From Pseudomonadota bacterium (GTDB taxonomy: Bacteria; Pseudomonadota; Alphaproteobacteria; Rhizobiales; Hyphomicrobiaceae): a stretch of DNA of 5,534 bases. The stretch spans positions 1-5,534 of the forward strand of contig QGVC01000237.1 of NCBI GenBank assembly GCA_003242645.1, in the 5' to 3' direction. The notes under the pieces are model-generated. The model made no database searches and was not told the origin of the DNA. It worked only from the letters and a program-made list of their open reading frames with translations. Made by a program: the position numbers and the translations under genes. Shown here piece after piece: positions 3,414 to 5,534 of this stretch; position 1 is the first letter of the stretch; every line of letters starts with the position of its first letter.

Positions 3414-4028
3414 CTAATTCCGAGCGGTGCGGTTCCTGCCACTCCCCACCAGTTTCGGGCCATTCAAGAGCGCTGGTGCGCTTGCGCCCGCCGCCCTTTC
3501 GATCTGGTTGGCTGGCTTTCTCTTCGGCGCAGGCGCCCTGGCCGCAATTGCCTCATTGAAGGTCCGCTCGAGATTTTGGCAGCGGGTTCGAGCCGAAGGA
3601 TGAGTCGGCGTGGCCGGCATATTGCCGAAGGACCTGCACACCTGCCTCAGGCCATTTCTGTCCAGCCAGCCTTCAGCGACGCCGCGCCTGACAGCCCAGC
3701 TGTCGGCCCTCAGCTCACTCCCCCCGACGCGGTGGTGGCCGCACTCGTGATAGAAGACGAAAAGACGAACCGTGTGCGGCATCCGATTGAGCAGCCGCGG
3801 ATTGATGATAAGGACGCCTGGCGCCGCAGCACCCTCGCTGGGCAGTCCCCCGTCGAGCACGCTCCGTGCCCCGCCGCAGCGGAGGGTGCGACCTCCCATC
3901 GAAAGACTTCCATCCCGCTGAACCTTGAAACCCCCGCTCGAAGCCGGCGCAGCCTGAGCGGCCGAAAGGAGGCTGAAAAAGGCTGCGAACGCGCTGGCAA
4001 GGCCGAGCAGCCGTACTGGATACTTCAC
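3414..4028 (-). CDS. Exported protein with HECGH putative zinc-metallopeptidase motif
   Basis: This protein has 204 residues from a GTG start at 4028. That start is chosen because GGGGGAG (4041-4035) lies 6 bases upstream and the peptide then begins with a signal sequence: MKYPVR, a hydrophobic stretch, and SAAQA before APASS, so cleavage is likely after residue 26. The frame stays open to a TTG at 4061, which would bury the signal. The central YHECGHHRVGG contains HExxH (His94, Glu95, His98). It is followed by ELRADSWAVRRG, where Glu105 or Asp109 could be the third zinc ligand, as in gluzincin-like ExxxD helices. The gap between HExxH and this helix is only six residues, shorter than I would expect. 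Four cysteines remain after processing (51, 96, 131, 150), so disulphides are possible. The last 40 residues are Pro/Ala/Arg-rich and probably disordered. I do not recognise a named family. Peptidase activity in the periplasm is an inference from the motif alone. Confidence 0.82.
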   Translation of the reverse strand: MKYPVRLLGLASAFAAFFSLLSAAQAAPASSGGFKVQRDGSLSMGGRTLRCGGARSVLDGGLPSEGAAAPGVLIINPRLLNRMPHTVRLFVFYHECGHHRVGGSELRADSWAVRRGVAEGWLDRNGLRQVCRSFGNMPATPTHPSARTRCQNLERTFNEAIAARAPAPKRKPANQIERAAGASAPALLNGPKLVGSGRNRTARN

Positions 4029-4148
4029 CGGACACTCCCCCGTGACGTGATTGCCACTCAACGTTAGCTAGAAATGTTGCATACACATTTGTGCCAGAAT
4101 TACGGCAGTCGCGCCATCGGGGCTCAATTTTCGGTTGCGGCAACGGTG

Positions 4149-4173
4149 GGAACGAGGCGGCGACCGGCGTGTT
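4149..4173 (+). promoter_or_regulatory. Candidate EcfG (general stress sigma) promoter
   Basis: GGAAC (4149-4153) is followed after 17 bases by GTT (4171-4173). This matches the alphaproteobacterial EcfG/RpoE2 promoter pattern, GGAAC then 16-17 bases then GTT. It points to the CBS-BON gene. Initiation would fall near 4180 and give a leader of about 70 bases. The -10 GTT shares its two T residues with the first half of the FNR/FixK palindrome. The match is exact at the conserved bases, but the motif is short. Confidence 0.5.
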
Positions 4174-4185
4174 GATGAGTATCAA
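4172..4185 (+). promoter_or_regulatory. FNR/FixK-type anaerobox (TTGAT-N4-ATCAA)
   Basis: TTGATGAGTATCAA is a perfect palindromic match to the binding consensus of FNR/FixK/Anr regulators, which activate genes under low oxygen. Its centre is at 4178.5. A class II activator site sits at -41.5, which would put +1 at 4220 and the -10 hexamer at 4208-4213. That hexamer reads GATCAT, 4/6 of the consensus and matching at the conserved second A and last T. The start codon follows at 4251. Spacing and orientation therefore fit activation of the CBS-BON gene. For the minus-strand gene the equivalent -10 position (4144-4149) is GC-rich and does not fit. Confidence 0.72.
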
Positions 4186-4207
4186 TGCCGATGCACAGAA
4201 CTCGGAC

Positions 4208-4213
4208 GATCAT
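4208..4213 (+). promoter_or_regulatory. -10 element of the putative anaerobox-dependent promoter
   Basis: GATCAT matches four of six bases of TATAAT and lies exactly where a class II FNR-type promoter places its -10 relative to the palindrome at 4172-4185. No recognisable -35 is present, which is usual for such activator-dependent promoters. The leader would be about 31 bases and contains the GGGAGG ribosome binding site (4240-4245). Confidence 0.45.
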
Positions 4214-4250
4214 TCGTCCGCGCAAAAACCCCAAGCTCTGGGAGGCTGCC

Positions 4251-4943
4251 ATGAAGGCTCGCGACATTATGAGCAAGAATGTGATCACCGTTCGTCGGGA
4301 GACATCGGTGCACGAAATTGCTCAGCTGATGACCGATAAGCGGATCAGCGGCGTTCCCGTGGTGGCAGAGGACGGCACTATCCTCGGAATGGTTAGCGAA
4401 AGCGACCTGCTCCGGCGGGCCGAGATTGGCACCGAGCCGCAACGCAAATGGTGGTTGAGCTTCTTCAGCGACCCTGACCTGCTGGCGCGCCAATACAGGA
4501 AAACACATGGCCTCAAGGCAGAGGATGTGATGTCCCGCCCCGTCGTCACCATCGACGAGGATGCGGATTTGAGCGAGATCGCCAACACCTTCGAAAAGCG
4601 GAGAGTGAAGCGGCTTCCGGTCGTGCGCGACGGCAAGCTGGTCGGCATCATCTCTCGCGCCGATATCGTGAAGGCCCTGAGTCAAAGCAAGCCGCAACCC
4701 GAGAAGCCGATAAAAAGCGACGCCGAGCTCGAGCAAGCGCTCTTGGCGAAGATCCGCGAGCAAGATTGGCTGGACGGCACTTTTCTCAACGTGGTCGTAC
4801 AGAATGGCGTCGTCGAGCTGAACGGCTTCGTTCCCTCCGCAGAGCAGCGCCGGGCTTTGCATGTTCTCGTCGAGGAGATGGATGGAGTCCAGAAGATCGA
4901 GGACAGGCTTGTGCTCGGGTCACCGAGTTTGCGAGGGGTCTAA
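4251..4943 (+). CDS. CBS-CBS-BON domain protein
   Basis: This 230-residue cytoplasmic protein has two tandem CBS domains, residues about 3-56 (MSKNVITV to GMVSESDLL) and 88-143 (VMSRPVVTIDEDADL to IISRADIVKAL). A BON domain follows at about 156-222 (SDAELEQALLAKI, NVVVQNGVVELNGFV, VQKIEDRLVLGS). A CBS pair usually binds adenine nucleotides such as AMP or ATP as an energy or ligand sensor. BON domains are associated with membrane or phospholipid contact and stress proteins, but here there is no signal peptide. A Trp/Phe-rich linker (QRKWWLSFFSDPDLLARQYRK, 64-84, in part) joins the CBS domains. The start at 4251 is set by GGGAGG (4240-4245) five bases upstream. An in-frame ATG at 4185 has no ribosome binding site and overlaps the anaerobox. 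The gene appears monocistronic. The upstream sites suggest induction by low oxygen and general stress. The ligand and partner are unknown. Confidence 0.93.
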   Translation: MKARDIMSKNVITVRRETSVHEIAQLMTDKRISGVPVVAEDGTILGMVSESDLLRRAEIGTEPQRKWWLSFFSDPDLLARQYRKTHGLKAEDVMSRPVVTIDEDADLSEIANTFEKRRVKRLPVVRDGKLVGIISRADIVKALSQSKPQPEKPIKSDAELEQALLAKIREQDWLDGTFLNVVVQNGVVELNGFVPSAEQRRALHVLVEEMDGVQKIEDRLVLGSPSLRGV

Positions 4944-5313: not shown

Positions 5314-5534
5314 ATGAACAAGAAGGTGATCATGGGTTTGGCCGCTGGTCTGATGGCACTCGGTGCGCTTCAAGTGCCGGGAGCTGAAGCAAAGACCAAG
5401 ATTTTCGTCCATGGCCACAAGCATCATCCCCACAAGCACTACGTTTTCAAATGGCACAAGTGGCATAAACCCCATTACGTCTACTACAAAGACTGCGACT
5501 ACTACTTCTACAAATGGAAGACCACAGGAAAGTT
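5314..5534 (+). CDS. Exported His/Lys/Tyr-rich protein, 3'-truncated by window edge
   Basis: The start ATG at 5314 has GGAGG (5303-5307) six bases upstream. The 73 visible residues begin with a clear signal peptide: MNKKV, a hydrophobic core of small residues, and PGAEA before KTK, with cleavage likely after residue 26. The visible mature part (47 residues) is extraordinary in composition: about 11 Lys, 9 His, 7 Tyr and 3 Trp. It contains HGHKHHPHKHY (33-43), two KWH units, and aromatic runs such as HYVYY and DYYFY around a single Cys. I recognise no domain. Clustered histidines suggest metal binding (Zn, Ni or Cu) in the periplasm or at the cell surface, and the Lys/Tyr pattern could also favour contact with polyanions or the envelope. 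Both are inferences. The reading frame is still open at the window end, so total length and C-terminal features are unknown. Confidence 0.85.
   Translation, partial: MNKKVIMGLAAGLMALGALQVPGAEAKTKIFVHGHKHHPHKHYVFKWHKWHKPHYVYYKDCDYYFYKWKTTGK

Follow-up and report, generated by a model that had tools for sequence, protein, structure and literature searches.

Does a perfect palindrome of the FNR/FixK type, lying before a gene for a CBS-CBS-BON protein, place that gene in a low-oxygen response, and if it does, which promoter would it serve and which signal would it convey? The question is raised by a 5,534-nucleotide stretch of DNA from a bacterium of the Hyphomicrobiaceae, hereafter the window, which was analysed as a whole. 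From left to right, the window contains a TRAP transporter DctM gene, an amidase gene, a small hypothetical frame, a gene with an ABM domain and then a divergent pair. The leftward member of this pair (3414-4061) encodes a product with no match in Pfam or NCBIfam; judged by eye, its N-terminus is signal-like and its YHECGHH stretch resembles the motif of a zinc peptidase. The rightward member encodes the CBS-CBS-BON protein. At 5314-5534, a small His/Lys/Tyr-rich protein begins (HGHKHHPHKHYVFKWHKWHKPHYV), which is probably secreted, is truncated by the window end and has no match in Pfam. One homology search found nothing beyond one short stretch of the TRAP gene. The features that matter for the argument are the following.

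3414-4061, minus strand: hypothetical gene, divergent, having its intergenic region in common with the CBS-BON gene; a homologue adjoins CBS-BON in L042 and L043.
4172-4185, no strand: very likely FNR/FixK-type operator, TTGATGAGTATCAA, a perfect TTGAT-N4-ATCAA; exact match, conserved before homologues.
4208-4213, plus strand: -10-like hexamer GATCAT, 22 bases after the box; the peak in the family is at 21-22.
4220, plus strand: predicted transcription start, placed by geometry.
4240-4245, plus strand: ribosome binding site GGGAGG, read from the sequence.
4251-4943, plus strand: CBS-CBS-BON protein, 230 aa; Pfam CBS 5e-37 (two stretches) and BON 2e-15.
4521-4682, plus strand: second CBS domain, residues 91-144 (Pfam).
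4716-4916, plus strand: BON domain, residues 156-222 (Pfam).

The initial annotation had described the locus as an exact palindrome, a -10-like element at a fixed distance from it and a leader with a strong ribosome binding site before a CBS-CBS-BON gene, and direct reading of the sequence bears out each of these elements. TTGAT-N4-ATCAA is present as a single perfect copy, an exact match to the operator pattern (TTGAT-N4-ATCAA or TTG[AC]-N6-[TG]CAA) that begins 79 bases before the ATG. Its centre is at 4178.5, i.e., 41.5 bases 5' of position 4220, and GATCAT occupies -12 to -7 relative to that position, as had been calculated. GGGAGG ends 5 bases before ATG 4251, and Pfam assigns two CBS stretches and one BON domain to the frame that starts there; 120 listed homologues carry the same two Pfam families. 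Among the 25 NCBIfam families listed, none matched the CBS-BON protein above its cut-off. We took 4251 as the start because the homologues align from the methionine at this position, which does not vary among 24 aligned sequences; a longer frame starting at ATG 4185 was dropped on the same ground.

To place the palindrome in a comparative setting, we searched for homologous proteins in 397 genomes (order-wide), 103 genomes (one family) and 289 genomes (class-wide), the sample groups being those to which G002 (locus L002), a named Hyphomicrobiaceae MAG, belongs. Matches weaker than 7.3e-39 were not taken in the order-wide search, whose set is the best of the matches listed, and the class sample consists of 29 new loci out of 46 matches listed. 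The proteins closest to that of the window are found in two genomes of one genus, G478 (68% identity) and G479 (63%), to which we refer as the sister genomes. The upstream regions scanned numbered 137, comprising the window, 56 loci and 80 short regions. Left out were L001/L002, which are duplicates of L011/L012, and loci with a match ending before residue 210 or beginning after residue 6; a contig-edge hit (G100:C3:3) was skipped in picking the 80 regions. It should be noted that the start positions are nominal, with an ATG at 115 of the 137.

The strict box TTGA-N6-TCAA, sought in the zone from -200 to -35 relative to the CBS-BON start, was present in 59 of the 137 regions (window included) and absent from 78. 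When 11 permuted half-site palindromes were sought in the same 137 regions, ten gave no match and one gave a single match. The class-wide sample behaved similarly: the strict box was present in 13 of 29 loci and absent from 16, in counts that include L214 (internal stop) and L217 (matching residues 1-153 only), and all 11 permuted controls gave 0. Grouped by identity to the window protein, boxed regions made up 14 of 20 at 45% or more (the box being absent in six), 22 of 56 at 40-45% and 23 of 61 at lower identity. The boxes also cluster in position, with 25 of 66 at -80 to -71, and their density in the same 85 loci is 2.98/kb in the zone vs 0.075/kb elsewhere, a 39.5-fold enrichment. Direct comparison of the nearest homologues shows that the TTGA/TCAA half-sites are retained at -68 to -95, and the central letters and the leader vary. 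Outside the 14-base core, just past the TCAA half-site, positions 2-3 are G in 61% and then C in 55% of 56 boxes. The second CBS-BON copy of G478 (L068, 35% identity), which was outside the 137-region scan, has no box upstream, and two of the six plasmid relatives scanned (L184-L188 and L220) carry the strict box in the nearest 200 bases, namely L220 (at -79) and L188, the start of which is uncertain.

A tree of the CBS-BON proteins was built from 84 rows, which were the window, loci of all three genome samples and others fetched, with the 80 short regions kept out of it; it is midpoint-rooted for drawing. The window falls in a group of 15 rows (starred, support 100/98), 14 of which have the box. 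The next wider group, which is not starred and has weaker support (89/79), has the box in 18 of its 19 rows, and the whole tree has it in 42 of 84. Presence of the box requires 15 changes on the tree against a mean of 28.3 after shuffling, and none of 500 shuffles gave a number as low. L048 (G421) is the only unboxed row among the window's 15 and lies inside the window's own 7-row group; the second copy in G421, L165, does have the box. Conservation of the palindrome and its spacing before orthologues, which the initial annotation had proposed as a check, was thus found, both in the window's group (14/15) and in the regions as a whole (59/137 vs 0-1 for the controls).

These comparisons also bear on whether the palindrome could have arisen by chance. 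A match of 10 letters can occur in this way: the window has one perfect copy vs 0.01 expected, such a copy also arose in 2 of 200 dinucleotide shuffles, and with up to two mismatches allowed the window is not enriched (2 found vs 1.59 expected). Against this stand the recurrence of the box in the window's group and its positional enrichment, and we consider a chance origin extremely improbable. The box at 4172-4185 is, on this comparative evidence, very likely a genuine FNR/FixK-type operator.

In class II promoters, the FNR-type box has its centre at -41.5. Position 4220 was chosen by the initial annotation to fit this geometry, and the geometry of this single window, in which GATCAT has four of the six letters of TATAAT, is therefore circular. 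It is supported independently because the -10-like peak is family-wide. For this analysis, the 59 boxes were thinned by similarity to 56, and a TATAAT-weighted score was compared with letter shuffles, for which the 99th percentile of the best z was 3.5. The score has its maxima at 21 and 22 bases past the box (z 8.4 and 8.0), with lesser peaks at 19 bases (z 5.4) and, marginally, at 27 bases (z 3.5). The 22 bases of the window fall within the class II arrangement, i.e., a centre near -41.5 and a -10 element 21-22 bases after the box, and G479 has CATAAT, with five of six letters, at the equivalent spot.

Since a palindrome is directionless, the box might be real and yet serve the divergent gene at 3414-4061, or might repress. 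A homologue of this gene does adjoin the nearest two orthologues (69% in L042 and 59% in L043); however, among the loci compared, many of which are short, it was found only at L042, L043 and L079 (which overlaps L043), and the box is conserved much more widely than that. Moreover, hexamers with at least four of six letters at 21-22 bases occur in 18 of 56 cases on the CBS-BON side vs 2 of 56 on the opposite side, where no offset rises above z 2.4. As the peak of -10-like elements lies on the side of CBS-BON, activation of CBS-BON, rather than of the divergent neighbour, would be the better reading, and a box acting for the neighbour or as a repressor site appears very improbable to us.

Evidence on the regulon comes from the company that such boxes keep. 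Perfect boxes occur 3 times in G478 and 12 times in G479, and the reversed pattern does not occur in either. Eight of these 15 places precede genes typical of low-oxygen regulons: four universal stress protein (Usp) genes, an Hsp20 gene, ccoN, a Crp-type gene that diverges from a NarK-like one, and CBS-BON itself. Three of the Usp genes were called by Pfam and the fourth (L080) because it resembles L071; ccoN was called by NCBIfam above the cut-off, and the NarK-like gene below it. The remaining seven boxes precede an ethylbenzene dehydrogenase-domain gene, a ferric reductase-like gene, a gene for a protein with no Pfam family, and four places that are unclear. Regulators of the fitting type are also present in the sister genomes. 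Both have a FixK-like protein (L084 and L085, 80% identical), and one has an FNR-like protein (L086). By NCBIfam, with scores under the cut-off in both cases, L085 (scanned as L077:133-834) comes nearest to FixK and L086 to FnrL. L086 carries CxxC-x7-C near its N-terminus, and common to all three is the stretch ETVSR in the helix-turn-helix, which we take to be the recognition helix of these CRP/FNR-type proteins. A regulator of this kind in the window's own genome would be the presumed user of the box.

Presence of a regulator as such does not discriminate, as hits at 1e-5 or better were obtained in 50 of 50 boxed and 60 of 60 unboxed genomes; it is uninformative because the CRP/FNR family is large. 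Location says more: in 30 of 110 genomes (18 of the 50 box-bearing and 12 of the 60 box-lacking ones), no more than 20 kb separate a CBS-BON gene from an FNR/FixK-like gene, vs about 1.6 expected, a rough random-placement estimate that assumes genomes of 5 Mb and uses regulator matches listed down to about 2e-26. In G002, an 11-kb island (L218, G002:C144:82500-93500) has seven relaxed boxes and contains genes for a cytochrome c, a FixK-like protein, the boxed CBS-BON and Host_attach, a frame that by eye resembles haem-copper oxidase subunit I, and two FNR-like genes whose products have cysteine clusters in their N-terminal part. Genes for host attachment and for CBS proteins both appear in a FixK2-dependent list of Bradyrhizobium diazoefficiens (PMC9104804, available in part).

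The box does not settle the exact signal because FNR, FixK and DNR have nearly the same one; PMC2908626, in the part available, describes the three as virtually identical. The main user could therefore be a CRP/FNR member of the NO type (DNR class), or another member, with NO or nitrate respiration rather than oxygen as the signal, and the position of boxes in G479 between the Crp-type gene, whose best NCBIfam family is FtrB, and the NarK-like gene would suit it. What speaks against this reading is that, in G479, the identical perfect box precedes ccoN next to a FixK-like gene, that Usp and Hsp20 genes are preceded by it as well, and that the CBS-BON gene of G002 sits in its island together with FixK-like, FNR-like and oxidase-like genes. 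We regard it as unlikely, and oxygen would be the more probable signal.

We therefore favor, with high confidence, a model in which an FNR/FixK-type activator drives CBS-CBS-BON from a class II box. The palindrome would be the operator for this activator, whose dimer, bound at 4172-4185, would overlap the -35 position of the promoter and recruit RNA polymerase to the -10 element at 4208-4213. When oxygen falls, CBS-CBS-BON would be transcribed alongside the regulon's genes for the cbb3 oxidase, universal stress proteins and small heat shock proteins. Membership in an oxygen-limitation regulon was the central prediction of the initial annotation, and it gains support from the conservation of the box, the class II -10 element and the low-oxygen genes at 8 of 15 boxes; judged from these sequence comparisons, the little-studied CBS-CBS-BON family is probably part of the low-oxygen response.

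How does this compare with known systems? According to the parts available of the respective papers, the CBS gene blr6074 of B. diazoefficiens is FixK2-dependent and has an upstream FixK2 box, TTGAGCTGCATCAA (PMC9104804), the CBS ortholog set 2256 is in the predicted alphaproteobacterial FixK regulon (PMC2908626), and microoxia raises CBS proteins, including blr4646 and bll5551, in B. diazoefficiens (PMC6515984). These three gene products are likened here to that of the window as CBS proteins, BON domain aside. Both blr6074 and the window gene are CBS-domain genes with a FixK-type box upstream, but the box of blr6074 is listed at -143, whereas that of the window lies 79 bases before the ATG with class II spacing to the -10 element. 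FnrL/FNR promoters of Rhodobacter and E. coli have the same TTGAT-N4-ATCAA box, and the FnrL targets covered in the available part of the source include no CBS-BON gene (PMC2908626). For Burkholderia isolates, in which a FixK homologue is discussed, an increase of a BON-domain protein from a low-oxygen locus is described (PMC6127331, in part), and the CBS proteins in the parts available of PMC4263372 and PMC7285207 are others than CBS-BON. In the open literature, as far as its incomplete coverage extends, we found no report of CBS-BON genes as FNR/FixK targets. The gene thus appears to be of a known kind, that of the FixK2-dependent CBS genes, and the CBS-BON member and its breadth appear to be new within the literature searched.

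What such a protein might do is suggested by its predicted fold. The model of the window protein (mean pLDDT 82.5, pTM 0.57) matches, over its CBS part, the CBS pairs of AMP-bound CBSX2 (4gqy, TMt 0.86), of AcuB with AMP, ADP or ATP (9s4x-9s52, TMt about 0.6) and of Hypoxic Response Protein 1 (Rv2626c, 1y5h, TMt 0.89), all of which have the same CBS-pair fold. Residues G46, D52 and G132, glycine and aspartate residues that we take to be the CBS ligand motif, are invariant in 24 homologues. Adenylate sensing by the CBS pair, the second part of the initial annotation's prediction, is thus no more than plausible on the model, and adenine nucleotides may be the ligand bound. Rv2626c, which we assume to be hypoxia-induced under the regulator DosR, differs in that it is a 133-residue chain of another phylum and that the match covers CBS residues only; the use of a CBS pair in the two proteins is likely convergent. 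In the loop between the CBS domains (residues 60-72, 4428-4466), residues 60-71 are below 50 in model confidence, T61 and W67 are invariant and W68 is nearly so; the loop is perhaps a conserved flexible element and contact site.

BON domains in general have been proposed to bind membranes (title of a reference in PMC6127331, available in part). A broader and tentative view, which we think could well prove wrong, is that CBS-CBS-BON is a recurrently kept low-oxygen effector of the alphaproteobacteria, namely a cytosolic adaptor whose CBS pair would read AMP/ATP and gate the action of BON on a membrane or partner, convergent with the actinobacterial hypoxia protein. In summary, it is comparative evidence, and not one motif, that would place the widespread CBS-BON architecture in the oxygen-limitation regulon, and a CBS-pair protein induced upon failure of respiration would be a natural candidate for a reader of adenylate status.
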